From: Rubritalea profundi
Lineage (GTDB): Bacteria > Verrucomicrobiota > Verrucomicrobiia > Verrucomicrobiales > Akkermansiaceae
DNA length: 32,876 nucleotides
NCBI RefSeq assembly: GCF_002954445.1
Contig: NZ_MQWA01000001.1
Coordinates: 2,303,342 to 2,336,217 of the forward strand
Direction of reading: 5' to 3'
The notes below the pieces were generated by a model. It saw nothing but the letters and a program-made list of their open reading frames with translations, was not told the DNA's origin and made no database searches. A program made the translations under genes and the position numbers. Positions 1 through 32,856 of the stretch are shown piece by piece; position 1 is the stretch's first letter, and each line of letters starts with the position of its first letter.

Positions 1-789
1 ACGGACTACGCGTTGAGCAAGGGAGTCACCATCAGGGACGACAGCATCATCACGAGCCACAATAAAGACAGCAAGCCATGGCATCACTCTGAGATGGCAG
101 AACTCTTCTGGCCCAAATTCCCGGTGATCCTCGAGCATCAGCACTATGGGCCATGCAAGGCCAGGGGAACCTGGCGTCCAGACAAGATAGAGGAGTCCGT
201 GGAGGCCTATCACGCCAGCTTCATGTCGATCCATGGCTTTCCGAAAGAGTATCTCAAAGAGAATCGCAAGATGATCGATACTATCAACAAACGCATGGGC
301 TACCGTCTGATGCCGACCAGCGTCACATGGCCTCAGACCGTGACCATCGCCACCCCGCAGGACGCCTACACCGCGTACAAGGACGTGACGCCGCACGCAA
401 ATCTCAAAGCCGGGTTCAAGGTGACTTGGTCATGGACCAACAACGGCGTCGCCCCCTGTTACCCCGGTGGTTTTCCTGCGCTGACCCTCAAGGACAGCAA
501 GGGCGGCATCGTCTCGGTCCTGGTTGATGAGACCCTCAATCTCCGCGACCTGAAGGTCGGTCCCATTGGCAAGGCTCCGGTCAAGAAGCACGCCAGCGAG
601 TTCATCATCGGTCTCTATGCGCCGACCACCAAACCTGGGACCTACGATGTCTACATCTCCGTTGGTAAATCAGACGGAACTCCCACAATTGCCATGCCGC
701 TGAAGGATGGCGATGGCCAACGGCGCTACAAGATTGGCACCATCACGCTTGAGGCAGTCGAAGAAATATTGGCCACAAAAGGCACATAA
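1..789 (+). CDS. DUF4832-like protein, C-terminal part (5' truncated by window edge)
   Basis: The frame is open to the first base, so the gene begins outside the window and any start near base 13 is artificial. The visible ~260 residues contain 'MGYRLMPTSVTWP', followed by a beta-rich segment with 'WSWTNNGVAPCYPGGFPALTL'-type residues. This is typical of the DUF4832 domain, found behind glycoside-hydrolase-like barrels in secreted proteins of Verrucomicrobiota and Planctomycetota. The substrate is not visible; an extracellular carbohydrate role is inferred from the family. The last ~9 codons (EEILATKGT) lie inside a sequence repeated exactly at 3279-3308, so the natural C-terminus appears to have been overwritten by repeat DNA. 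GC content is higher than in the genes just downstream. Confidence 0.7.
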   Translation, partial: TDYALSKGVTIRDDSIITSHNKDSKPWHHSEMAELFWPKFPVILEHQHYGPCKARGTWRPDKIEESVEAYHASFMSIHGFPKEYLKENRKMIDTINKRMGYRLMPTSVTWPQTVTIATPQDAYTAYKDVTPHANLKAGFKVTWSWTNNGVAPCYPGGFPALTLKDSKGGIVSVLVDETLNLRDLKVGPIGKAPVKKHASEFIIGLYAPTTKPGTYDVYISVGKSDGTPTIAMPLKDGDGQRRYKIGTITLEAVEEILATKGT

Positions 790-1491: not shown

Positions 1492-3176
1492 ATGAAAAGA
1501 CTATCAATTGTAATACTATGTTTGGCTTCTCTTCCACTGCTGGGACAAGACCGCATGACGGGCAAAAATTGGGCAACACGCTCTGAGGTGCTTGCTCAAA
1601 ATGGAATGGCTGCAACGAGCCATCCACTCGCTACTCAAGTGGCACTTGATATTCTTAAAAAAGGTGGCAATGCAATTGACGCTGCAATAGCTGCCAACGC
1701 AGTACTCGGTCTCGTAGAGCCAACTGGTAATGGCATTGGTGGAGATTTGTTTGCCATTATTTGGGACGCTAAAACAGAGAAACTTCATGGGTTAAATGCA
1801 AGCGGAAGATCACCTTATTCTCTTTCACTTGATTATTTTAAAAAGAACGGTTATGAAAAAATACCCTCTCATGGGCCACTTCCCGTTTCGGTGCCAGGGG
1901 CTGTTGATGGTTGGTTTGAAATGCATGACAAATTTGGAAGCCTAGCAATGCAGGAAGTTCTTCAACCTGCAATAGATTATGCAAATAATGGCTTTCCTGT
2001 TACTGAATACATAGGATGGTTGATGAAATCGGGCGGAGAGAACCTGCAACGATTTCCTGGATTCAAAGAAACATACATGCCCAATGGGAGGATGCCTCAA
2101 AAAGGAGAAATCTTTAAAAACCCGGGATTGGCGAATACATTAGACAAAATCGCCAAAGGTGGGCGTGATGCTTTTTATAAAGGAGAAATAGCCAAAACCA
2201 TTGCAGACTATATGCAGCAACTTGGTGGTTTCTTAACCGAGAGAGATTTGGCGGACCATACTTCTGACTGGATAGAACCAGTTTCCGTTAACTACCGCGG
2301 CTATGACGTTTGGGAGCTTCCCCCTAGCGGTCAAGGTATTGCCGCTTTACAAATACTCACCATTCTTGAAGGCTATGACCTAAAATCAATGGGCTTCGGC
2401 AGTACTGAATATGTGCACACATTTACGGAAGCTAAAAAATTGGCCTTTGAGGATCGAGCAAAGTATTACGCAGATATGGACTTTTACGAAACTCCCGTGG
2501 AAGAATTGATCTCAGATGAGTATGCTGCCGAAAGAAGGAAATTAATTGATCAAAAAAAGGCCGGACGCTCCTACCCAGCTGGAAAACTCAAAGACGGTGA
2601 TACTATTTACCTTACTGTAGCTGACAAGATGGCAATATGGTTTCCTTGATTCAAAGTAATTATAGAGGAATGGGAAGCGGTATGACACCTCCAGGCCTTG
2701 GGTTTATTTTACAGGATAGAGGCGAATTATTTTCACTTGAAGAAGGACATGCCAATGTGTTCGAACCTCATAAACGACCTTTCCATACTATCATCCCCGC
2801 CTTCATTACCAAAGACGGAATGCCATACATTAGTTTTGGACTCATGGGTGGCGCAACTCAACCTCAGGGACATGCTCAAATTGTGATCAATATGATCGAT
2901 TTTGGCATGAATTTGCAAGAAGCCGGTGATGCGCCTCGAATCTTACATAGTGGATCATCTCAACCAACCGGGGGAACAATGAGCGATGGGGGAATATTGC
3001 AATTAGAGTCAGGGTTTGACTATGAAACCATAAGGGAATTAATAAAAATGGGCCATCGCATCTCGTGGAATGTTGGCAGTTATGGCGGTTATCAAGCCAT
3101 CATGTGGGATGCCGTTAACAAAGTTTATTATGGCGCTTCAGAATCAAGAAAAGATGGTCAAGCCGCTGGCTATTAG
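1492..3176 (+). pseudogene. ggt: Gamma-glutamyltransferase, interrupted by a 1-nt frameshift
   Basis: An exported Ntn-hydrolase that would cleave gamma-glutamyl bonds such as in glutathione. It has a signal peptide (MKRLSIVILCLASLPLLGQ), the family segment 'KKGGNAIDAAIAANAVLGLVE' at ~55-75, 'TGNGIGGDLFAI', and the autoprocessing site 'DGDTIYLTVAD' with the predicted nucleophile Thr371. The small subunit continues from 2637 in another frame ('MVSLIQSNYRGMGSGM', 'PGLGFILQDRG'). At ~2628-2632 the sequence reads aagatggc where aaggatggc would give ADKDGNMVSL. One missing G therefore splits the gene, and restoring it gives 561 residues, the usual length. Codon use is AT-rich and Bacteroidota-like, unlike later core genes, suggesting transfer. 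Real decay and a homopolymer sequencing error are both possible. Confidence 0.88.
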
Positions 3177-4381: not shown

Positions 4382-5908
4382 ATGAAATTGATTATAAAAT
4401 CCTGTATTCTCCTTATTCTTCTGTCTGCGATAAGCATCAAAGCAATGGGCAGCAGAGCTCGACCAAACAAACATGCCAACAAGCAAATGAATGTGGTGTT
4501 TATTCTGGCCGATGACCTCGGTTGGAGCGACACCGAGCTTTATGGTACAACTAAGCTTTATAAAACGCCCAATATATTACGCCTAGCCGAACTCGGCTGC
4601 ACTTTCAGCAGAGCGTATTCTAATTCCCCGCTTTGTTCACCAACCAGAGCCAGTATTCTGACCGGCCAAACGCCTGCCCGCCATGGCAGCACTCAGCCGA
4701 AGCATCACTCAAAAAACGTCGTGATGAAGGCTGAAGTAGTGGCAGAAGTGCCGGCATCACAAAAAGCACTACCAGTCACAACGGTCACGCGTTTAGATAC
4801 ACAGTACCCGACACTCGGCAAAATGATGAAAACGGCAGGCTATACAACCGCTCATTTTGGCAAGTGGCATTTAGGGTCAGAACCCTTCAGTCCGCTCGAA
4901 CATGGTTTTGATGTTGATATACCACACCACCCCGGGCCCGGGCCTGCCGGAAGTTATGTCGCCCCCTGGAAATTCAACAATATCAAAGCAAATTATGCCG
5001 GGGAACAGATTGAAGATCGCATGGCTGAAGAAAGCGTCAAGTGGTTAAACAGTCTACCCAAGGATAAACCATTTTACATGAACTACTGGCAATTCTCTGT
5101 TCATGCACCCTTCGGTGCGAAAGAGAAACTCATCAATCAATACCGGAAAGTCATTGACCCCAGCAGTGAGCAGAAGTCAGCAACCTATGCGGCAATGGTA
5201 CATTCACTCGATGATGCTGTGGGGACTCTCTTAGACGCCATCGACAAAAAGGGAATAGCCGATAACACCGTGATCATTTTCATTTCCGACAACGGTGGAA
5301 ATATACACAGTAGAATCCCAGCAGATGGAGATGCCGCGCCAACCTCCAATGCGCCACTGCGTGGCGGCAAGGCTTCAATGTGCGAGGGAGGCATTCGCGT
5401 GCCTTGCATTGTGGTTTGGCCAGGTGTTACGCAGGCAGGGAGCCGTAGCGACGAGATCATTCAAACTTCTGATTTCTACCCGACATTACTCAACGGTCTG
5501 GGAATTGCCTTGCCCGAAAATCATGCCATTGACGGGATCGACATCAAGCCCGCCCTCAAAGGCAAGAAACTTAAACGTGATGCAATATTCACCTACTTCC
5601 CCTGCTTAATCCCTGTACCTGAGTGGTTACCACCCTCAGTCTCCGTACACTCGGGAAAGTGGAAATTGATCCGCGTGTTTTTTGGCGGTGACGCAGGCCA
5701 GCATGACTACAAACTCTACGACCTGTCTCAGGATGATGCAGAACTGAATAATCTGGCTACAGCCAAACCTGAGCAAGTGAGAGCACTGGACCTGCTGATT
5801 GAAGAACATCTAGCGGACACAAAGGCCATCACTCCAAAGCCGAACCCTGACTTTGATATAAAACTTTTCGAGCCCGAAAAATTGGAATACGCCCTGCGAG
5901 CAAAATGA
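4382..5908 (+). CDS. Secreted sulfatase (S1 type, formylglycine-dependent)
   Basis: A 508-residue sulfatase with an N-terminal signal peptide (hydrophobic residues 8-22), predicted to act in the periplasm or outside the cell. Metal-site residues D44-D45 are in 'ILADDLGWSD'. C85 in 'LCSPTRASILTGQ' is the C-x-P-x-R site converted to formylglycine. 'AHFGKWHLG' and 'IIFISDNGGN' complete the active site, and the family C-terminal subdomain ends 'YDLSQDDAELNNLA'. The substrate is probably a sulfated polysaccharide, an inference from how common such enzymes are in marine Verrucomicrobiota. It has no operon partner. A formylglycine-generating enzyme that could activate it lies ~2.1 kb downstream on the other strand (8033-9211). 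Confidence 0.93.
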   Translation: MKLIIKSCILLILLSAISIKAMGSRARPNKHANKQMNVVFILADDLGWSDTELYGTTKLYKTPNILRLAELGCTFSRAYSNSPLCSPTRASILTGQTPARHGSTQPKHHSKNVVMKAEVVAEVPASQKALPVTTVTRLDTQYPTLGKMMKTAGYTTAHFGKWHLGSEPFSPLEHGFDVDIPHHPGPGPAGSYVAPWKFNNIKANYAGEQIEDRMAEESVKWLNSLPKDKPFYMNYWQFSVHAPFGAKEKLINQYRKVIDPSSEQKSATYAAMVHSLDDAVGTLLDAIDKKGIADNTVIIFISDNGGNIHSRIPADGDAAPTSNAPLRGGKASMCEGGIRVPCIVVWPGVTQAGSRSDEIIQTSDFYPTLLNGLGIALPENHAIDGIDIKPALKGKKLKRDAIFTYFPCLIPVPEWLPPSVSVHSGKWKLIRVFFGGDAGQHDYKLYDLSQDDAELNNLATAKPEQVRALDLLIEEHLADTKAITPKPNPDFDIKLFEPEKLEYALRAK

Positions 5909-7035: not shown

Positions 7036-8049
7036 CTAGACAATTTTTAAGCGCGCGAGGTCCTGAGAGTCGACAAGTCCGACGACTTTATTCTGAGTGT
7101 CGACGACGATGAGGTCATCAATCCGCTTCTGCTCGAAGGTTTTGACAGCTTCAGCAGCGAGAGCGTCTTGGTGGATTGTGATGGGCGTGGCATTCATAAA
7201 GTCTACGACGAGGCGTTTGCCTATGTTGTTGTCAGCCTGGAATGTGCGGGCGAAATCTCCATGGGTGAAGACGCCGCGGAGAGTGTGGCCATCATTGTCA
7301 GTGATGATAGCGGAGCCTGTGCGTGCGGCGCTCATGGCTGCGATTGCGTCGGTGACGCTTGCTGTGGTGCTGACTATGGCTATCTGGTCACCAGAGCGCA
7401 TGATGTCTTTGACTGAGGTTAGAAGGGCTCTGCCGAGGGCACCACCTGGGTGGAATTTGGCGAAGTCGTTCTCAGTGAAGCCGCGCGCTTCTAGCAAGGC
7501 CATCGCTAGAGCATCGCCCATCACCAAAGCCGCGGTCGACGATGATGTCGGAGCTAAGTTGAGTGGGCAGGCTTCTTTGTGGATGGGGGTGATCAGCGCT
7601 ATATCGGAGTGCTTGGCGAGGCTTGAGCGAGCACTCTTTGTAATAGAAATTATTTTGACGTCGAAGCGCTTGATGTGCGGTAGGAGGTCTAGAAGTTCTG
7701 CTGTTTCACCCGAGAATGAAAGGGCGATGATAGTGTCACCATCTGAGATGATTCCGAGGTCGCCGTGGAGGGCGTTTTGCGAATTGAGCACCACTGCTGT
7801 GGAGCCTGTAGAGTTGAGAGTGGCGGCTATTTTGTGGCCGATGTTGCCAGATTTACCGACCCCGACAACCACGATCTTGCCGCTGTTCGCTACTGAGTCA
7901 GCGAGGGCGATGACTGCCAATGCGAAGTTGTCGTCGAGATGGTCGAGTAGAGATTGGATGGCTTCGATCTCGATTTCGACGACCCGTTTTCCGCTAGCTA
8001 TGAGTTCAGAGTGATTCACGATTTTTGAGGGATTATAGTTTAGGGGCAT
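7036..8049 (-). CDS. kdsD: D-arabinose 5-phosphate isomerase (KdsD/KpsF family)
   Basis: This cytoplasmic sugar-phosphate isomerase converts ribulose 5-phosphate to arabinose 5-phosphate, the first step towards Kdo for lipopolysaccharide. The 337 residues comprise a SIS domain at ~40-175 ('VVVGVGKSGNIGHKIAATL', 'ALSFSGETAELLDLLPHIKR', 'PTSSSTAALVMGDALAMALL'), the family segment 'FAKFHPGGALGRALL' and two CBS domains (~215-335). The length is standard. The first 17 bases overlap the 3' end of the FGE gene, so the two are probably translationally coupled. It implies an LPS-bearing outer membrane. Confidence 0.94.
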   Translation of the reverse strand: MPLNYNPSKIVNHSELIASGKRVVEIEIEAIQSLLDHLDDNFALAVIALADSVANSGKIVVVGVGKSGNIGHKIAATLNSTGSTAVVLNSQNALHGDLGIISDGDTIIALSFSGETAELLDLLPHIKRFDVKIISITKSARSSLAKHSDIALITPIHKEACPLNLAPTSSSTAALVMGDALAMALLEARGFTENDFAKFHPGGALGRALLTSVKDIMRSGDQIAIVSTTASVTDAIAAMSAARTGSAIITDNDGHTLRGVFTHGDFARTFQADNNIGKRLVVDFMNATPITIHQDALAAEAVKTFEQKRIDDLIVVDTQNKVVGLVDSQDLARLKIV

Positions 8050-9211
8050 CTTTGACGCAACGGAATCCAGTGTGGTGGGTCGGTGTCAGAGGCTCATGGT
8101 AATGTCTGGCTGCTGGGCGGAAACGTAGGCAGTAAGAAAAGTGGCAAAGAAAGGAGCCGCCACGCGCGACGCGGAGGTGGCTGAGTGGGTGCATGCCAGG
8201 GGTCGGTGGTGGGCAGGTGCCGGTGCGTAGGACTTGGGTTTGCTCAGTCTCAGTGAGAGGCTTAGTCGGACCTTGCGGATTCTTTACTGGGTTGAGAATG
8301 TAATCTTCGTAATAGCGTGGATTGTAGTAATCGCTACAGATTTCCCAAACATTGCCAGCCATGTCATAGAGACCGTAATCGTTAGCTGGATAGGATTTTA
8401 CCGGAGCTGATAGGTGGAAGCCATCTTCGGCGACTGAAGCATTTGGAAAGTCACCTTGGAAGCAATTAGCCATCCATTTGCCGTCGAGTTTGACATTGGG
8501 TCCCCAGTTGAACATGCGTTTTTCGTGGCCGCCACGAGAAGCTTTTTCCCACTCAGCCTCGGTGGGGAGACGCTTGCCAGCCCATTTAGCGTAAGCTGCA
8601 GCATCATGGTAGTTCACCGAGACTACAGGGTGGTCCATTTTGCCTTCTATGGTGGATCCTGGTCCTTCTGGGTGACGCCAGTTTGCTCCCTTAGTGTAGG
8701 CCCACCAGCGCCATGCGTCCTCGGTGAAACGGGGGTTGAGTGCTTCAGCTGGCTTAGTATAGACATTGGCCCCAGGCTCTAATGCTTCGGCTGGTGCTTT
8801 GGGGAAATCTTCTTGCTTGAGGCCTTCTTCGGCCATCGTGACAAAGCCTGTGGCATCTACGAATTCCGCAAACTGTTTGTTAGTGACCTCAGTGGCATCC
8901 ATGAAAAATCCATCGACGGCACATTTGTGGAGCGGACGTTCTTCTAGAAAATGGTTTTCGGCCACACGCTTACGGGTCATCCGATCATTGATTCCTTCGA
9001 GAAATACCGAAAGATTACCTGGATCTTCTTCATTTCCACGCCAATAAGTTCCTCCAGGAATCCAAACCATGCCTTCCGGTGCCGCCACCGGTCCTTGTGG
9101 TAACTCTGGCTTGTTGTCAGCTCCAGCCGTGGACTTTGTCGATGAGTTGTCGCAGGAGGATAGACTGAAGGCGGCGAGGCCTGCAAAAAAGGTGATTTTG
9201 AATGGATTCAT
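8033..9211 (-). CDS. Formylglycine-generating enzyme (SUMF1 family), predicted lipoprotein
   Basis: A 392-residue SUMF1/FGE-sulfatase domain protein. 'GMVWIPGGTYWRGN' opens the domain; 'DATEVTNKQFAEFV', 'HPVVSVNYHDAAAYAKWAGK', 'LPTEAEWEKASRGG' and 'GLYDMAGNVWE' follow. The C-terminal 'GGSFLCHFSYCLRFRPAAR' carries C356 and C361, the spacing of the copper-binding active-site cysteine pair in true FGE. It is therefore likely to oxidise sulfatase cysteine to formylglycine rather than being a non-catalytic relative. The N-terminus (FFAGLAAFSLSSC, C20) is a lipoprotein signal, placing the enzyme in the periplasm; that is unusual, since well-studied bacterial FGEs are cytosolic. Divergent from hisA (52 bp apart); overlaps kdsD by 17 bp. 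Confidence 0.88.
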   Translation of the reverse strand: MNPFKITFFAGLAAFSLSSCDNSSTKSTAGADNKPELPQGPVAAPEGMVWIPGGTYWRGNEEDPGNLSVFLEGINDRMTRKRVAENHFLEERPLHKCAVDGFFMDATEVTNKQFAEFVDATGFVTMAEEGLKQEDFPKAPAEALEPGANVYTKPAEALNPRFTEDAWRWWAYTKGANWRHPEGPGSTIEGKMDHPVVSVNYHDAAAYAKWAGKRLPTEAEWEKASRGGHEKRMFNWGPNVKLDGKWMANCFQGDFPNASVAEDGFHLSAPVKSYPANDYGLYDMAGNVWEICSDYYNPRYYEDYILNPVKNPQGPTKPLTETEQTQVLRTGTCPPPTPGMHPLSHLRVARGGSFLCHFSYCLRFRPAARHYHEPLTPTHHTGFRCVKDAPKL

Positions 9212-24282: not shown

Positions 24283-24870
24283 ATGGCAGCAATGCCTAGC
24301 TACCATCCAGATCTCCAAACATTTCTCATTCCCTTGGCGGAACGGGAAATGACCTTGCGCAATGCCTTAGCGCAGTTGGACGCTATCGGCAATAATGCCT
24401 CAGAAGTCCCTTGGATTGTCCAGATGATGGAGAATCCAGGGTTCTCCTTTCCTCCTTTTAGTATGTTTAAAGGGCGAGTGAGCCTCTTCCAACACGACTG
24501 CATCCACCTCTTGTTAGGGCGGGGTACCACTTTGATCGACGAAGCATTCACCATCGGTTTCACCATGGGCTCTTCTCACGCCATGAGCACGACCGCCTCC
24601 AAGCTCTTCGGCTACGTCGCCGGCCATTGGTATCCTAAAGCCTATCGTTTTCCACAGCACGCTCACAAGGTCTATGCCGATGCTGTCCATCTCGGGATGA
24701 TCTCTCAGTGCCTCCTATTAGAAGAACTCGACTACCGGCCGTACCTCGACTGCCCACTCGGTGAGTTGCGAGAGGAGCTGGGAATCGAGGTGAAATTGCT
24801 AGAAAGCTACTACCAGATCGAAGCTCGCCGTAACCCAAAGATCGAGGCTAGCCAGCGCCTCTGCGCGTAG
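24283..24870 (+). CDS. COQ4-like protein with HDxxHx11E motif
   Basis: 195 residues without signal peptide or membrane helix. 'FQHDCIHLLLGRGTTLIDEA' contains H71-D72-x-x-H75 and E87, the HDxxHx11E metal-ligand pattern described for COQ4, the ubiquinone-synthesis protein. The next segment, 'FTIGFTMGSSHAMSTTAS', is also typical of the wider family. COQ4 acts on the quinone head group. Whether this bacterium makes ubiquinone is unknown, and a role on another lipid or quinone is possible. A second ATG at 24292 is an equally plausible start. It stands alone on the plus strand behind the propeller gene. Confidence 0.62.
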   Translation: MAAMPSYHPDLQTFLIPLAEREMTLRNALAQLDAIGNNASEVPWIVQMMENPGFSFPPFSMFKGRVSLFQHDCIHLLLGRGTTLIDEAFTIGFTMGSSHAMSTTASKLFGYVAGHWYPKAYRFPQHAHKVYADAVHLGMISQCLLLEELDYRPYLDCPLGELREELGIEVKLLESYYQIEARRNPKIEASQRLCA

Positions 24871-25817: not shown

Positions 25818-25865
25818 ACACAACATATGGTATTGTTAATAATTTGTGAATACCACATGGTGCAA
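25818..25865 (+). promoter_or_regulatory. Candidate paired NrdR boxes upstream of nrdB1
   Basis: Box 1 (25818-25833, acacaacatatggtat) matches 13 of 16 positions of the NrdR consensus as I recall it (acaCwAtATaTwGtgt). Box 2 (25850-25865) is weaker against the consensus, but its reverse complement matches box 1 at 11 of 16. The centres are 32 bp apart, about three helical turns, close to the usual NrdR spacing. NrdR represses ribonucleotide reductase genes when dATP/ATP is high. The boxes lie ~155-200 bp upstream of the nrdB1 start. Confidence 0.45.
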
Positions 25866-26019: not shown

Positions 26020-27072
26020 ATGTCCACCACCACAGTAACTCTCGGCGATCGCACTTTCGAAATCGATGAAGCAAAGGCGCAAGAAGCCTATGCCGCGAAG
26101 AAGGTCATCAATGGCCGCGACACCATGTTCTTCAATATTCTACCACTCAAATACCAGTGGGCGTATGAACTCTATAAGGAGATGAAGAACAACCACTGGG
26201 AGCCAGAAGATATTGCACTGCGTGGTGACGCTGCACAGTGGCCAAGCATTTCAGAAGACCAGCAGCAGGCAGTTCAGATGCTTCTTGGTTACCAAGCCAC
26301 CTCCGGCGAAATCACTGGTGCTGAGGAAATCTACGCCATCCGTGACATCGTCACAGCACCTGAACTTAAGCTAGTTTTCGGCCGCTACGTTCACGAGCAA
26401 AATACCCAGCAAGACGTCCTCGTCCACATCTTTAGCTCGCTCTCTCTCGACCCTGTAGCCTGCACCAAGCACTTCGCTGAAGCTGCCAGTAAGGTTAAGG
26501 CGCTCACTGACAAGCACCTCGTCGAGCTCGACCGCAGCGCCGACATGACCCAGCTCGCCAACAAGCAAGCCTTCGCCAAGAACACCTTCCTCTTTAGCCA
26601 GTGCATGGAGGGCCTCCAGTTCTACAGCCTCTACGCCGTCGTTCTTGAGATGGGTCGCACCGGCAAACTCACCGGCACAGCCGAAATTCTCGCTAGCCTC
26701 TTGTGCGACGCTGGATTCCGCTGCGAACTCTTCCGCAAGCTCTTCTCTGAGCTCAACCGCGAGAACAATGACATCCGCACCGACGCCTTCGACGCCGAGC
26801 TCGTAGCCCTCATGGACGAAGCAGTCGCCCTTGAGAAATCCTTCATCCGCGACTACCTTTCTGGAGCTGCCAGCGCCGGACTCGAGAACGACACCCTCGA
26901 CAGCTATATCGACCACGTCGCTGCCCGCCGACTAGCCGCCTGCGGCTTAGGCCCAGCAACAGATCCATCACCACTCCCATGGCTAGACGAAGTCTTCTTC
27001 CCAGCTGGTGCTAACCAAGCCAACGCAGCCGCCACCCAATCCCAAACCGAATTCCAAGACGACGACCTCTAG
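26020..27072 (+). CDS. NrdB paralogue lacking most metal ligands (NrdB1)
   Basis: A 350-residue protein that aligns end to end with the class I ribonucleotide reductase small subunit encoded next to it. Conserved NrdB landmarks remain: W60 in 'NNHWEPEDI', 'TAPELKLVFGRY', 'CMEGLQFYSLY' and the C-terminal docking tail 'DDDL'. Aligned with NrdB2, five of six metal ligands are changed: G96 for Glu, Q127 for Glu, Q130 for His, A231 for Glu and R234 for His. Only E197 is kept. The radical-tyrosine position is L134, and there is no Tyr in the last 40 residues, so the Tyr356-type radical relay is absent. The frame is intact, so this is not decay by stop codons. It is probably a structural or regulatory partner, as yeast Rnr4 is for Rnr2 (inference). 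First gene of the nrd operon. Confidence 0.88.
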   Translation: MSTTTVTLGDRTFEIDEAKAQEAYAAKKVINGRDTMFFNILPLKYQWAYELYKEMKNNHWEPEDIALRGDAAQWPSISEDQQQAVQMLLGYQATSGEITGAEEIYAIRDIVTAPELKLVFGRYVHEQNTQQDVLVHIFSSLSLDPVACTKHFAEAASKVKALTDKHLVELDRSADMTQLANKQAFAKNTFLFSQCMEGLQFYSLYAVVLEMGRTGKLTGTAEILASLLCDAGFRCELFRKLFSELNRENNDIRTDAFDAELVALMDEAVALEKSFIRDYLSGAASAGLENDTLDSYIDHVAARRLAACGLGPATDPSPLPWLDEVFFPAGANQANAAATQSQTEFQDDDL

Positions 27073-27170: not shown

Positions 27171-28252
27171 ATGACCACTACATTATTAGGCGACGCCACC
27201 ATCACCATCGACTCCGCAGCTGCTGAGAACATTCTCTCTAGCAAGCGCGTTATCAACGGCACCACTCCATCAGGCTTTGGACTCGCTCCGCTCAAATACG
27301 AGTGGGCATACGAGATCTACAAGAATATGCGTGCCAACCACTGGGAGCCAGAAGACATCCCGATGCAGAAGGACGTCGAGCAATGGCGCAGCGATGAAAT
27401 CTCTGACGTCGAGCGGTGGATCATCAAGATGGGTATCGGCTACTTTTCTGCAGCAGAAGCATCGTCGGTGACAACATGATTCACGTCATCTGCGAGCTTA
27501 TCAGCGCACCTGAGCTTAATCTCGTTTTCCGTCGCCACGGCCACGAAGAAAACATCCACGCCGACTCGCTCGTCTACATGGTTTCATCACTCGGCATCAA
27601 CCCGCACGAGTGCGAGGCAATGCTCGAAGACATCCCAACCATCAAAGACAAGACCGACTTCGTAGTCTCCAACAGCCGGGGCCTCCGCCGCGACATGGAC
27701 ATGACCAAGATCGAGAACAAGCAGGCGCTCGGCCGCAATATGTTCATGTTTGGTCAGGTCATGGAAGGCACCCAGTTCTACGGCCTCTTCGGCATGATCC
27801 TCAGCCTTTACCGGCAGAATAAATTCCCAGGTATCGGCCAGATGTTCCGCTACACCCTGCGTGACGAGTCGAACCACATCGAACTCCTCCGCAACCTCCT
27901 GATGGATCTAGTCGACGAGAACCCAGAGATCTGGACAGAGGAATTCAAAGAAGACCTCCGCGCCACTATGGCCGAAGGCATCCGCCTCGAAAAAGCCTTC
28001 ATCCGCGACTGTCTCCCAGTAGCTGCCGTCGGACTCAACCTCGTTGAATTCGAGCAATACATCGACTTCATCGCCGACCGCCGCCTCACAGCCTGCGGCC
28101 TGGCCCCACTAGTAGAAGGCGGAACCTCCAACCCATTCCCATGGCTCGCCGAGATGATGGACATCAAGAAAGAACAAAACTTCTTCGAAGGCCGAGTCAC
28201 AGAATACCAAAAAGCCTCAGCTCTCGGAGAAATCGACGACGACGATCTTTAG
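27171..28252 (+). pseudogene. nrdB: Ribonucleotide reductase small subunit NrdB2, catalytic type, 1-nt frameshift
   Basis: The class I small subunit that generates the radical for NrdA. The N-terminal part ends in frame at 27479; the rest is in another frame from ~27460. The break is at ~27461, where gaagcatc stands for gaaggcatc. One missing G, when restored, gives 'FSAAEGIVGDNMIHVI' and 360 residues. All six metal ligands are present: E96, E127 and H130 ('HEENIHADSLVY'), E199 ('VMEGTQFYGLF'), E233 and H236 ('LRDESNHIELL'). The position of E. coli Tyr122 is L134, so the protein resembles tyrosine-less classes such as chlamydial class Ic. Y346 near the tail can serve the radical relay, and the tail ends 'DDDDL'. 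As the only catalytic NrdB seen, the frameshift is quite likely a sequencing error. Confidence 0.92.
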
Positions 28253-28478: not shown

Positions 28479-31400
28479 ATGTATAGAAATATAACCCTAG
28501 AAGAAGACGTAGCGTTGAAAAACGTCGTCACCCGTCCACGCTCAGAAAAGCCTGACTTCGCTTGGCGCGATCAGTTGTCCACTCCCACCAAGAGCGTCCC
28601 CCAAGTCATCGTCGTTAACGGCTCCAAAGAATCTGAGCTGTCCCTCGAAGACGTAGCCGACACCATCGGTGGCGCACTCACTGACCTCCTTCTGGCACGT
28701 CAGTTGAAGGTAGACCTTATTTTCAACGATGAGAACCGCCACTTTGTATCCGGCGTGGCACACAATGTTGCCGAGTCACTCATCGAGCAAGTCATCGACG
28801 GTGGCCAGCTCAAGCTCACTCAGAACGACCTCTACCTTCTCATCGAGAAGGCACTCATCGAGAACGACGCGCACGACGTAGCGAAATCCCTCGTCTTCAA
28901 CCGTTCACTTGCGGACAAAGGGTCCATCGAAGTCTCAGTAATCTCTAGCGAGCCATTCACCGTCCGCCTCATCCGCCGCAACGGCAACGTCGTTCCATGG
29001 TCCGAGACCAAGATCGAGAACGCAGTCCGCCAGGCATTCCTCACCATGAAGCTCGATGCCTCGCCGGCATCAGCAGTGGCTCACGCCGTCACCAACCGCG
29101 TTCGCACTGAGGAAAAAGCATTCATCCACATCGAAGACGTCCAGGACATCGTCCAGGAAGAACTGATGCGCGCTGGTCACTTCAAGATCGCCGCTCACTA
29201 CGTCCTCTACCGCGCCGAGCGCACAGCATCCCGTACCGGCGACGATGCACTTCCAATCGAAGACCCACAACAGGACTCCATGGTTGTCGTCACCACAGCA
29301 GATGGCAATTCTATCTTCTGGGATGGCACCGAGCTCAAGAAGCGCATCCAGTTCGCCTCCATCGGCCTCGATCTTTGCCTCTCAGAAAGTGAGATCGAGC
29401 GCGAACTCCGCCGCTCCATCGGCACCGAGATCACAGCTGAAGGTCTCCAGACCACCATCACGCTCAACGCCAAGACTCTCATCGAGCAAGACGCAGACTT
29501 CTCCAAGTTCGCTGGCCGCATCCTCCTTTCCTACATTTATGAGGAAGTCCTCGACTGGAACATCCTCCGCGACGGAATTGAAGGCGTAAAGTCAGCCCAC
29601 GCCAAAGCATTCAAGGCATACCTCAAGCACGGTGTCGCCATCAAGCGTCTCAGCCCAGAGCTCATCGACGGCCGCTACGACCTCGATAAAATCGCTGAAG
29701 CACTCGACCCGACTGCCGACCTCGACTTCGACTTCCTCGGTATTCAGACCCTCTACGATCGCTACCTTGTGATCGACAAGACGGGCGACAAGCAACGCCG
29801 CCTCGAAGTTCCACAATTCTTCTGGATGCGTGTTTCCATGGGCCTCTTCAAAGAAGACGGACCTGACAAGCAAGACTGGTGTGTGCGTCTCTACAACCTC
29901 TACAAAGGTCGTCGATTCTGCTCATCCACTCCCACACTCTTCAACTCCGGCACACTCCACAGCCAGCTTTCCTCCTGCTACCTTTACAAGGTCGACGACT
30001 CCATCGAGTCCATCATGCAGCGTGGTATCGCAGACAATGCTTACCTCTCCAAATGGGCTGGCGGCCTCGGTGGTTCATGGACTGCTGTCCGCGGCACCGG
30101 TGGTTACATCCAGGGCACCAATGGTGAGTCCCAGGGCGTTATCCCATTCCTCAAGCTCCACAACGACCAGCTCGTTGCAGTCAACCAGGGCGGCAAGCGT
30201 CGCGGATCTGGTTGCGCCTACCTTGAGACATGGCACAACGACATGGAAGACTTCCTAGAGCTTCGCAAGAACACCGGTGACGAGCGTCGCCGCTGTCACG
30301 ACATGAACACAGCGAACTGGATTCCTGACCTCTTCATGAAGCGCATGGAAGCCCGCCAAGACTGGACACTGTTCCGTTCCAACGAGACACCAGACCTTCA
30401 CGACCTTTACGGCAAAGCATTCGAGCGTCGTTACGCCGAGTACGAAGTAATGGCAGCAGAAGGCAAGATCTGGTCACAGAAGCAGCCAGCTATCGAAATG
30501 TGGAAGAAGATGCTCAAAATGATCTTCGAAACTGGCCACCCATGGATCACATTCAAAGACCCGTGCAACGTCCGCTCACCGCAGGACCACGCTGGTGTCA
30601 TCCACTCGTCCAACCTTTGCACAGAGATCACTCTCAACACATCCGAAGACGAAACTGCAGTGTGTAACCTCGGCTCAGTAGTGCTCGACAACCACATCCG
30701 CGAAGACGGATCGCTCGACCACGACATGCTCAAGGAGACCATCACCGTCGGCATCCGTGCCCTCGACAACGTCATCGACATCAACTTCTACCCGACTCCG
30801 TCAGCCAAGACAGCAAACTCCCGCCACCGTCCTATCGGAATGGGTGTCATGGGTCTTCAAAATGCACTCTACAAGAAGAACCTAGCATTCGCATCTGATG
30901 CCGCTATCGAGTTCAACGACGAGTTCATGGAAGCCATCGCTTACTACGCCTACAGCGCATCTTCAGATGTTGCAGCAGAGCGCGGCAGCTACTCATCCTA
31001 CAAAGGCTCCAAGTGGGACCGCGGTCTCCTTCCACAGGACACTGTCGATCTCCTCGAAGACGAACGTGGCGTGAAAGTTGACGTCCCTCGTGGCAACAAG
31101 ATGGACTGGACCCCCGTGCGCGAAAAGATTGCCAAGCACGGCATGCGTAACTCCAACGTCCTCGCTATCGCACCGACAGCCACCATCTCCAACATCATGG
31201 GAACCACCCCGTGTATCGAGCCGAACTACAAGAACCTCTTCGTCAAGTCCAACCTCTCAGGAGACTTCCTCGTGCTCAACCGCCAGCTCGTCAGAGACCT
31301 CAAGAAAGAAGGCCTCTGGAACCGCGAAATGCTCGACCAGCTCAAGTACTTTGATGGTGAGCTCGATGAGATCAACGAGATCCCAGATGCTATCAAGCAG

Positions 31401-31760
31401 AAGCACCGCACAGTCTTCGGCGTCCCATACCAGGCCGTCATCGATGCCGCAGCGCGCCGTCAGAAGTGGATCGACCAATCCCAATCGGTCAACCTCTTCA
31501 TCGCCGTACCTGACATCAAGACACTCTCCCACATGTACCGCCGAGCCTGGTCCACTGGTCTCAAGACCACCTACTACCTCCGCTCACAAGGTGCATCAGG
31601 AATCGAGAAGTCCACCATCGACACCAAGAAAGCAACCCGCGGCGTAGCAGCCGGCGCAGCAACCACAGCCGCACCAAAGAAGCAATACTCCCCAGCTGAG
31701 GTTCAAGCCTGCTCCCTCGAAGCCATGATGAATGGTGAAGAGTGCGAAGCGTGTCAGTAA
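28479..31760 (+). CDS. nrdA: Class I ribonucleotide reductase large subunit with three N-terminal ATP-cone regions
   Basis: It reduces ribonucleotides to deoxyribonucleotides using a radical from NrdB. 1093 residues, longer than E. coli NrdA (761) because of the N-terminal extension. A degenerate ATP-cone is at ~41-140, a clear one at ~160-250 ('VRLIRRNGNVVPWSETKIE') and a third at ~267-362. Catalytic residues are all visible: C500 ('LSSCYLYKVDDS'), N712, C714 and E716 ('SNLCTEI'), C729 ('AVCNLGS'), the Tyr pair 1032-1033 ('KTTYYLR') and the C-terminal thiol pair C1089/C1092 ('EECEACQ'). Multiple cones recall chlamydial NrdA and imply dATP/ATP activity control. It lies 226 bp after nrdB2, has no Shine-Dalgarno sequence and strong C-ending codon bias. 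Third gene of the operon. Confidence 0.96.
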   Translation: MYRNITLEEDVALKNVVTRPRSEKPDFAWRDQLSTPTKSVPQVIVVNGSKESELSLEDVADTIGGALTDLLLARQLKVDLIFNDENRHFVSGVAHNVAESLIEQVIDGGQLKLTQNDLYLLIEKALIENDAHDVAKSLVFNRSLADKGSIEVSVISSEPFTVRLIRRNGNVVPWSETKIENAVRQAFLTMKLDASPASAVAHAVTNRVRTEEKAFIHIEDVQDIVQEELMRAGHFKIAAHYVLYRAERTASRTGDDALPIEDPQQDSMVVVTTADGNSIFWDGTELKKRIQFASIGLDLCLSESEIERELRRSIGTEITAEGLQTTITLNAKTLIEQDADFSKFAGRILLSYIYEEVLDWNILRDGIEGVKSAHAKAFKAYLKHGVAIKRLSPELIDGRYDLDKIAEALDPTADLDFDFLGIQTLYDRYLVIDKTGDKQRRLEVPQFFWMRVSMGLFKEDGPDKQDWCVRLYNLYKGRRFCSSTPTLFNSGTLHSQLSSCYLYKVDDSIESIMQRGIADNAYLSKWAGGLGGSWTAVRGTGGYIQGTNGESQGVIPFLKLHNDQLVAVNQGGKRRGSGCAYLETWHNDMEDFLELRKNTGDERRRCHDMNTANWIPDLFMKRMEARQDWTLFRSNETPDLHDLYGKAFERRYAEYEVMAAEGKIWSQKQPAIEMWKKMLKMIFETGHPWITFKDPCNVRSPQDHAGVIHSSNLCTEITLNTSEDETAVCNLGSVVLDNHIREDGSLDHDMLKETITVGIRALDNVIDINFYPTPSAKTANSRHRPIGMGVMGLQNALYKKNLAFASDAAIEFNDEFMEAIAYYAYSASSDVAAERGSYSSYKGSKWDRGLLPQDTVDLLEDERGVKVDVPRGNKMDWTPVREKIAKHGMRNSNVLAIAPTATISNIMGTTPCIEPNYKNLFVKSNLSGDFLVLNRQLVRDLKKEGLWNREMLDQLKYFDGELDEINEIPDAIKQKHRTVFGVPYQAVIDAAARRQKWIDQSQSVNLFIAVPDIKTLSHMYRRAWSTGLKTTYYLRSQGASGIEKSTIDTKKATRGVAAGAATTAAPKKQYSPAEVQACSLEAMMNGEECEACQ

Positions 31761-31926: not shown

Positions 31927-32856
31927 ATGGATAAACTTTGGGTTCTGTTCGAGAGGTGGCATGAGAAAAGTACTGGCTGGCTTATAAGCTTATTGGTTTT
32001 TGGAATATTTTTAATTCCTCAGGTCAAGAATGGTTGGGCTGACCTTGGATGGATGAATTTAGTGATTGATATTGCCGTGTCTTTTACAGTTTATGCTATT
32101 TGGTGGTGTAGTACGCGAGTGAAGAAGCACCCTAAAAACGTAGTAGGGATTGATTTGGTTTTAGTGTGTGACACTAGAGAGCAAGAAAAACGTGTACGTG
32201 CTGACTTTGTAGAAACTCTCAAAGAAGTTTTAAGTAATGGGGAGGTGCCGTTTAGCTTTATTATGCATTCAAAATCTAAAGCTGGTGACATTGGAGATCT
32301 TAAGGGGGCCTCTAGGTTTATGGACATCTCAGGTGGAAGATTCCTTATAAAAGCAAAAGCGAAATTACGTAAGATTGATGATGAGGAAAGGAATGTTGTG
32401 GAGATGGTCTGCACGGTTAGCCACTCTAAAGTTCAAAGTCGAGTTAAAGAATTTCTAGCGGAAGAAATTGCTAACTCTATGAGGAAAGATGATATTATTT
32501 CTCATAATAATGACATATATCAATTTAGAAATGCAGCTGAGCGTGTTGATGTGTCAACGAGGTATATATTAGCGTTGGCATCTCTAGTGTCTGGTGATTA
32601 TGGTTTTTCAAGAAGTCTGTGTATTGATTTAAAAAATAGACTGAGTGGTCGAAATATTTCAGATCCAGAGTTGATTCATATTAAGGATTCGTTGCCAAAG
32701 TTTATTTGTGAATCTTATAAGTTTGAAACTCATTGCTTGTACAAGCGATATTATGAGAATGGGGAAGAATCAGTTTTGAAAGGCTTAAATGTAGCTGTAG
32801 AAGAAGCTTTAAAATTTGTAAATGGGGCCAGGCCTTCTATCAAGGAAACGACTTGA
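31927..32856 (+). CDS. Unrecognised AT-rich membrane-anchored protein
   Basis: 309 residues, no family recognised. Two hydrophobic helices near the N-terminus (~17-33 'GWLISLLVFGIFLIPQV' and ~43-62) would anchor it in the inner membrane. A basic 'RVKKHPK' follows, then ~240 cytoplasmic residues: an alpha/beta part ('VVGIDLVLVCDTREQEKRVR') and a helical C-terminal part ('RYILALASLVSGDYGFSRSL', 'KFICESYKFETHCLYKRYYE') that has a TPR-like look. Codon use is markedly AT-rich compared with the nrd genes next door, suggesting recent acquisition. The ATG at 31927 follows an AT-rich stretch. It could belong to an accessory or defence locus continuing beyond the window, but nothing in the sequence proves that. 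Confidence 0.72.
   Translation: MDKLWVLFERWHEKSTGWLISLLVFGIFLIPQVKNGWADLGWMNLVIDIAVSFTVYAIWWCSTRVKKHPKNVVGIDLVLVCDTREQEKRVRADFVETLKEVLSNGEVPFSFIMHSKSKAGDIGDLKGASRFMDISGGRFLIKAKAKLRKIDDEERNVVEMVCTVSHSKVQSRVKEFLAEEIANSMRKDDIISHNNDIYQFRNAAERVDVSTRYILALASLVSGDYGFSRSLCIDLKNRLSGRNISDPELIHIKDSLPKFICESYKFETHCLYKRYYENGEESVLKGLNVAVEEALKFVNGARPSIKETT

Follow-up and report, generated by a model that had tools for sequence, protein, structure and literature searches.

A candidate metal-free partner subunit, NrdB1, in the class Ic-like ribonucleotide reductase operon of Rubritalea profundi and related Akkermansiaceae

In class I ribonucleotide reductases (RNRs), one half of the beta dimer seems to be active at a time in several subclasses (PMC6754362), and such half-at-a-time behaviour has been described with class Ic included (PMC8463856). 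In budding yeast, Rnr4 is reported to lack three iron-coordinating residues and to be required for the activation of Rnr2, the Rnr2/Rnr4 heterodimer being the predominant form (PMC2704937), and Plasmodium falciparum R4 is reported to bind both R2 and R1 (PMC3824934). Among the matches listed in open-licence PMC literature, no bacterial beta-beta' RNR was found, which is no proof of absence. Here, we describe a tandem pair of nrdB genes carried by a group of marine Verrucomicrobiota that includes Rubritalea profundi. The first gene, nrdB1, probably encodes a metal-free beta-prime subunit, convergent with yeast Rnr4, that dimerises with the class Ic-like NrdB2, the beta-beta' dimer docking on NrdA. 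This reading is supported by ligand loss, conservation, fixed gene order, purifying selection, reciprocal divergence of the two copies and a preserved acidic end.

The window, that is, the whole stretch of DNA analysed, comprises 32,876 nucleotides of an assembly that is 95.8% complete (GCF_002954445.1). Of the named relatives found, Rubritalea marina DSM 17716 is the nearest, with 74% identity in NrdB1 and 91% in NrdA. In the list of open reading frames (ORFs), the genes nrdB1, nrdB2 (in two frames) and nrdA follow one another on the plus strand:

26020..27072, plus strand: nrdB1, candidate inert beta-prime, 350 aa (ORF, Pfam, alignments, AlphaFold2 model)
27171..27479, plus strand: 5' part of nrdB2, up to the frameshift (ORF list, Pfam, alignment with R. 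marina)
27416..28252, plus strand: 3' part of nrdB2, with ligands E, H, E, E, H and the tail Tyr (ORF list, Pfam, alignments)
28479..31760, plus strand: nrdA, 1093 aa, one ATP-cone by Pfam, the only PF02867 match of the genome

The first ligand Glu of nrdB2 falls in the 5' part. Profile searches of the window's genome found no PF00268 match outside the nrdB1-nrdB2 locus and no NRDD match; with the single PF02867 match, the operon is thus the only RNR found in this genome. The preliminary description of this DNA had overlooked a frameshift in the adjoining, otherwise canonical nrdB2: the window lacks one base between 27458 and 27459, the sole gap in a 1083-column alignment with R. marina. As this genome showed no other RNR, the break is likely to stem from indel errors of the assembly; the 13 nrdB2 genes that lie whole on a contig in other pair genomes are unbroken, at 358–361 aa. 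The frameshift is probably a sequencing error, and the species would carry an intact NrdB2. Elsewhere in the window, a gamma-glutamyltranspeptidase gene (1492–3176) is likewise split, matching its profile at 2–337 and 341–512 in two overlapping frames, and is probably another indel error of this assembly. The window also holds a sulfatase gene and a sulfatase-modifying-factor-like gene (4382–5908 and 8033–9211), and the ORFs that flank the operon region, 24283–24870 (195 aa) and 31927–32856 (309 aa), gave no Pfam match at E 0.001.

The nrdB1 ORF begins with ATG and encodes 350 residues uninterrupted by stops, and the protein scores 154 bits against PF00268, the class I small-subunit profile (cut-off 33.6). 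Ligand positions were read by alignment with NrdB relatives and with Chlamydia trachomatis R2c, the ligands of which are numbered E89, E120, H123, E193, E227 and H230. The corresponding positions in NrdB1, together with the radical-path Trp and the C-terminal end, are as follows, with their occurrence among the 15 NrdB1 sequences known to us:

26197..26199, plus strand: W60 codon, radical-path Trp position, kept in 15/15
26305..26307, plus strand: G96 codon, ligand Glu lost (Q in 13, G in 2)
26398..26400, plus strand: Q127 codon, ligand Glu lost in the window (E in 13, Q in 2)
26407..26409, plus strand: Q130 codon, ligand His lost (R in 13, Q in 2)
26608..26610, plus strand: E197 codon, ligand kept in 15/15
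26710..26712, plus strand: A231 codon, ligand Glu lost (V in 8, I in 4, A in 2, T in 1)
26719..26721, plus strand: R234 codon, ligand His replaced by Arg in 15/15
27058..27069, plus strand: C-terminal DDDL, presumed NrdA-docking end (acidic D[DE][DE]L in 15/15)

E197 is the sole survivor of the six ligands in the window and in R. marina, which alone share the full combination of G, Q, Q, A and R at the other five positions; the remaining 13 proteins keep two of the six and carry Q, E, R, V/I/T and R. The charge pattern follows two clades: where the first His has become Arg, the second Glu is kept, and where it has become Gln, that Glu is Gln as well. From this pattern we infer that Arg-Glu pairs fill the former metal site of NrdB1. 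D230 is conserved in 15/15, and the DDDL end is, from what is established for R2 tails, presumably the tail that docks on NrdA. The tail Tyr, which passes the radical in known R2 proteins, is present in none of the 15. An AlphaFold2 model of NrdB1 built from 30 aligned sequences has a pLDDT of 88.2 and a pTM of 0.86, falling below 50 only at residues 331–346 and 348–350, and its best match among solved structures is C. trachomatis R2c, with 27% identity, a Z of 35.3 and a deviation of 3.0 A over 318 residues. NrdB1 is 44–50% identical to the single-copy NrdBs of Akkermansiaceae.

The preliminary description had read the same five substitutions, G96, Q127, Q130, A231 and R234, with E197 kept in a full-length protein, and had reported the missing tail Tyr, the retained W60 and DDDL and a preserved R2 core; the alignments bear out the residues, and the PF00268 match and the predicted fold, close to that of C. 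trachomatis R2c, agree with the core. Its counting of Leu at the radical-Tyr position among the losses is not supported, as Leu stands there in 65/65 single-copy relatives and in 15 of 16 NrdB2 rows, namely those covering the site, and is thus a family-wide feature. By its residues (Glu as first ligand, no Tyr at the radical site), the NrdB family is class Ic-like, and NrdB2 has Leu at the radical site and Glu as first ligand in all rows that cover these sites in frame. Glu at the first-ligand position is described for R2c and R2lox, and Leu, Ile and Val are documented at the position of the R2c Phe (PMC3824934).

A profile made from five NrdB1 sequences was run over 386 Verrucomicrobiales genomes, 14 of which scored 585–672 bits, the next match reaching 440. 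Altogether NrdB1 occurs in 15/260 Akkermansiaceae genomes and in 3/16 genera: two genomes of genus g1 (the window and R. marina), 12 of g12 and one of g14 (Persicirhabdus sediminis). When 387 genomes sampled from the phylum were searched, NrdB1 was found only in G000 and G024, both Akkermansiaceae (E 1e-135), and a scan of named genomes, the reach of which was set by its peptide patterns, turned up 38 loci of which nine were NrdB1. As just three of 16 genera, and two genomes of g1, carry NrdB1, the RNR works without it in close relatives. A viral origin was considered and rejected, since a scan of viral contigs with the NrdB1 alignment returned ten loci with at best 28% identity.

In every NrdB1 locus (15 genomes), nrdB2 lies directly after nrdB1 on the same strand. 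The next gene is nrdA in the window and in 13 fetched pair loci, in two of which a contig end cuts nrdA; in the remaining locus (L070, identical to the contig of G409 and counted once), the contig stops inside nrdB2, before any nrdA. A single PF02867 match, taken as the nrdA of the operon, was found in 11/15 pair genomes; in one of these, G034, it lies on a different contig, the operon contig stopping inside nrdA. NRDD is present in 2/15 pair genomes (G024 and G239). A second PF02867 protein of about 404–414 bits, possibly of another RNR class, is encoded on another contig in G024, G201 and G239.

By the NG86 method, dN/dS of NrdB1 was 0.042, 0.063 and 0.075 in the three pairs with dS below 0.3, and 0.059 in the pair G034/G207 (dS 1.5). 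In the 40 pairs listed out of 105, values with defined dS were 0.04–0.13, with one of 0.24 (G022 with G409). All 14 window pairs were listed as well, and those with other genera gave, where defined, 0.19–0.32 at saturated dS; beyond the close pairs such ratios are unreliable, dS being saturated or undefined in many pairs. In most of the listed pairs, dN of NrdB1 was about two to three times that of NrdB2. The published values for yeast, set beside these figures, are 0.497 for RNR4 and 0.119 for RNR2 (PMC2704937). The preliminary description had supposed from the open frame that selection maintains nrdB1, and the homologues bear this out, with dN/dS of 0.04–0.08 in the three closest pairs, far below 1 and indicative of purifying selection, and with the metal site lost in all 15 of the 260 Akkermansiaceae genomes that carry the gene. 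The reading as a pseudogene was rejected in view of dN/dS and conservation.

In a quick tree of 95 rows, the NrdB1 sequences group together with support 100 at the end of a long stem, the NrdB2 sequences likewise form a single clade (99), and the branching within the two is compatible. The NrdAs of pair genomes fall in two places in a 34-row tree, following genus, the two from Rubritalea grouping with other Rubritalea; the trees carry SH-aLRT support only, and both are flagged for long branches. An AU test rejected the grouping of R. marina NrdB2 with the single Rubritalea NrdBs (p 0.0016), and the same comparison made without the N-terminal columns and eight pair-specific sites gave p 0.56, so that the rejection was gone. 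The trees compared left out 22 distant single rows, the NrdB1 rows and C. trachomatis R2c. As the AU result hangs on the N-terminal columns of NrdB2, the claim that an nrdB1-nrdB2 block was transferred between genera was dropped; the same outcome would be expected from co-adaptation, or from recombination close to where nrdB2 has its 5' end.

The main argument for a heterodimer lies in the way in which the two copies have diverged. The set of single-copy NrdBs was reduced from 68 to 65 by dropping S_L072 and S_L074, which are pair loci, and S_L071, which sits at a contig edge with its upstream gene invisible; NrdB2 was represented by 13 sequences, the incomplete one from G409 and the two pieces from the window being set aside. 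Conservation of at least 95% across the 65 single-copy NrdBs defines 209 columns; both copies retain 68 of these, NrdB2 alone retains 62 and NrdB1 alone nine, and site 120 has changed from Leu to Phe in both. Seven of the NrdB1-only sites (9, 13, 23, 31, 39, 51 and 56) belong to the N-terminal arm and helix A and two (117 and 121) to helix C, and the ratio of NrdB1-only to NrdB2-only sites is 7:0 within residues 1–57 and 2:62 elsewhere (Fisher p 2.7e-8). At sites at least 90% conserved in the singles, mean retention in NrdB1/NrdB2 is 0.91/0.57 in residues 1–45 and 1.00/0.63 in helix A, as against 0.18/1.00 in helix B, 0.44/0.97 in helix F and 0.10/0.92 in the tail. In the NrdB of L. blandensis, helices B and C are described as the dimer interface and an N-terminal segment as touching the partner (PMC6754362). 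Residues 109 and 113 of this contact segment correspond to about residues 32–36 of the NrdB1 model, an estimate from the ends of the aligned range (27..328 = 104..399). A heterodimer would place the NrdB1 arm on the unchanged core of NrdB2 and the NrdB2 arm on the changed core of NrdB1, which is the pattern seen, while two separate homodimers would not predict such a swap of arm and core. The swap could partly arise, too, if the 5' end of NrdB2 were of chimeric origin.

In the picture that we favour, NrdB1 and NrdB2 would associate as a beta-beta' heterodimer and bind NrdA by the acidic C-termini of both subunits, only the tail of NrdB2 having the Tyr. The dimetal cofactor and the radical would come from the NrdB2 half alone, giving one cofactor per dimer, and in the dead half the Arg-Glu pairs would occupy the former metal site. 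The N-terminal arm of NrdB1 would pack on the conserved core of NrdB2, and so stay conserved, and the arm and helix C face of NrdB2 would be adapted to the altered core of NrdB1. NrdB1 probably stabilises NrdB2 or primes it for cofactor loading, as has been proposed for Rnr4, and would fix genetically an asymmetry that other class I RNRs show in function alone.

A PF00268 search over 387 genomes of the phylum gave a match in 125 and revealed another tandem pair, in genus g71 of family f9 (G519 and G602), at two loci:

L148:3218-5532, plus strand: tandem nrdB pair of g71 (PF00268 search)
L149:6893-9417, minus strand: tandem nrdB pair of g71 (PF00268 search)

Among 252 genomes of the family, G519 and G602 stand apart at 661 and 830 bits, the next scoring 467. 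The order is nrdB, nrdB', nrdA. By eye, the second copy keeps all six ligands and the tail Tyr and has a diverged core and a changed tail, and the first copy has kept its core and changed its arm and helix C face. Between the two genomes, dN/dS is about 0.11 for the second copy (dN 0.106, dS 0.973) and about 0.08 for the first (0.059, 0.728). Of the 209 sites, 13 are changed in NrdB2 of Akkermansiaceae and 15 in the first copy of g71, with 39, 117, 120 and 121 in common (p 0.0085); in each lineage, nine sites have diverged in the cofactor-type copy where the partner retains the conserved residue, with 39, 117 and 121 in common (p 0.004) and six of the nine unshared in each. The split between arm and rest is weak in g71 (2:1 against 7:56, p 0.047), and this lineage consists of two related genomes. 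These parallels leave us evenly divided on a wider proposal, that Verrucomicrobiota evolved an obligate alpha2-beta-beta' RNR at least twice, once in Akkermansiaceae with a half-site erased and once in g71 in a ligand-complete and maybe earlier stage, and that the dimers were re-keyed by the same swap, in which the cofactor-type copy changes its arm and helix C face (39, 117, 121) and the partner keeps the old residues. On another contig of G519 (L152:1707-2924), there is an NrdB that by eye resembles the enterobacterial class Ia and could be contamination.

Upstream of nrdB1, two sites resemble NrdR boxes:

25818..25833, plus strand: NrdR-box-like site 1, about 200 bp upstream of nrdB1, 13/16 to an assumed NrdR-box consensus
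25850..25865, plus strand: NrdR-box-like site 2, weaker, found with a looser pattern, starting 32 bp after site 1

Site 1 is the only match in the window of at least 12/16 to this consensus, and the spacing of the two sites fits that of published NrdR boxes, which are 16 bp long and 15–16 bp apart (PMC12176259). With the assumed consensus, a box of at least 12/16 lies within 300 bp of nrdB1 at 10/15 loci. With the looser pattern and up to 450 bp, one is found at 15/15 nrdB1 loci, the window included, and at 18/24 single nrdB loci (at least 11/12); as this pattern was devised after the first matches had been seen, the 15/15 is descriptive, and in each pair of boxes the second is weak. Between nrdB1 and nrdB2, the gaps of 13 loci outside the window held no NrdR match above 10/12. 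With boxes before nrdB1 and none in the gaps, nrdB1 is probably the first gene of a single NrdR-controlled operon.

Its place as first gene downstream of these boxes would also suit a regulator or competitor, in which an inert R2, as a homodimer or in a non-productive heterodimer, occupies NrdA and tunes its activity or oligomer state. The presumed docking end and the radical-path Trp and Asp, kept in 15/15 despite the loss of the cofactor site and of the tail Tyr, are in keeping with such a role. We nevertheless think it unlikely, since a pure competitor needs no reciprocal change in the arm and helix C face of NrdB2, and the fixed tandem order points to a stoichiometric partnership. It is less probable still that NrdB1 is a free-standing chaperone or metal-delivery helper of NrdB2 that stays outside the final holoenzyme: such a role has been suggested for yeast Rnr4 (PMC3824934), but the retained acidic C-terminus and predicted R2 fold favour a presence in the holoenzyme. 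That NrdB1 is catalytic in its own right, as a new type of R2 with no metals or with other ligands, seems very improbable. Class Ie is reported to work without metals (PMC11846895), and W60, D230 and E197 are kept in NrdB1; however, it has Leu at the DOPA position, the tail Tyr is absent and neither ligand His is retained, and what remains of the site is not the same in the two NrdB1 clades (G, Q, Q versus Q, E, R). A decaying duplicate, which the faster dN and the many lost core residues might suggest, is hardly credible for a single clade spread over three genera, with an intact gene in 15/15, close-pair dN/dS far below 1 and specific residues invariant.

If the preferred reading, an inert beta-prime paired with NrdB2, is correct, a bacterial RNR with a genetically dead half would make the half-site question testable without mixed homodimers, and the yeast solution would have arisen independently in bacteria. 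Single-copy genes, a ligand-complete pair and a degenerate pair within one phylum would then form a rare staged series from homodimer to obligate heterodimer.

Among known systems, Rnr4/Rnr2 of Saccharomyces cerevisiae, already named as the closest parallel in the preliminary description, remains the best one, as in both cases an R2 paralogue without metal ligands evolves fast and yet is kept, with an active partner beside it. NrdB1 is likewise a conserved full-length R2 paralogue with a degenerate site and a canonical partner, but it differs in its separate origin, in being bacterial and encoded in one operon with nrdA, in being class Ic-like rather than class Ia, and in the loss of four to five ligands and of the tail Tyr. 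In sequence comparisons, common descent with Rnr4 finds no support: beside the 44–50% identity to single-copy Akkermansiaceae NrdBs, C. trachomatis R2c is matched at E 2.9e-32 and Rnr4 (1jk0_B) only at 6.1e-6. C. trachomatis class Ic R2c is the solved structure nearest to NrdB1, both by sequence and by model, and among the two nearest by sequence to NrdB2, with which it shares Glu as first ligand and a non-Tyr radical site, Phe standing there instead of Leu. Chlamydial R2c, a homodimer, is not known to have an inert paralogue beside it. Plasmodium R4 and the other apicomplexan R2_e2 proteins resemble NrdB1 as non-canonical R2s in which the C-terminal Tyr is reported absent and the C-terminus conserved, but they are eukaryotic and are described as keeping the metal ligands with few exceptions (PMC3824934). 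Class Ie likewise has ligand Glu replaced in a bacterial R2; unlike NrdB1, it is described as itself catalytic, with three Glu replaced (QSK or VPK) and with both His and the DOPA-forming Tyr kept (PMC11846895), whereas NrdB1 has R or Q, R and Leu at these positions in 15/15. Its exclusion from class Ie by the missing Tyr and His upholds the distinction drawn in the preliminary description. Candidatus Liberibacter asiaticus also has a second bacterial nrdB without a metal site, for which a heterodimer was speculated, but this short gene is described as encoding a 125-aa fragment that shares more than 99% identity with the 3' portion of the complete gene (PMC5154197), in contrast to a conserved paralogue of full length. 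The mode of an inert beta-prime is known from yeast and in part from apicomplexans, and the NrdB1 sequence is far nearer to the NrdBs of Verrucomicrobiota and chlamydiae than to Rnr4.
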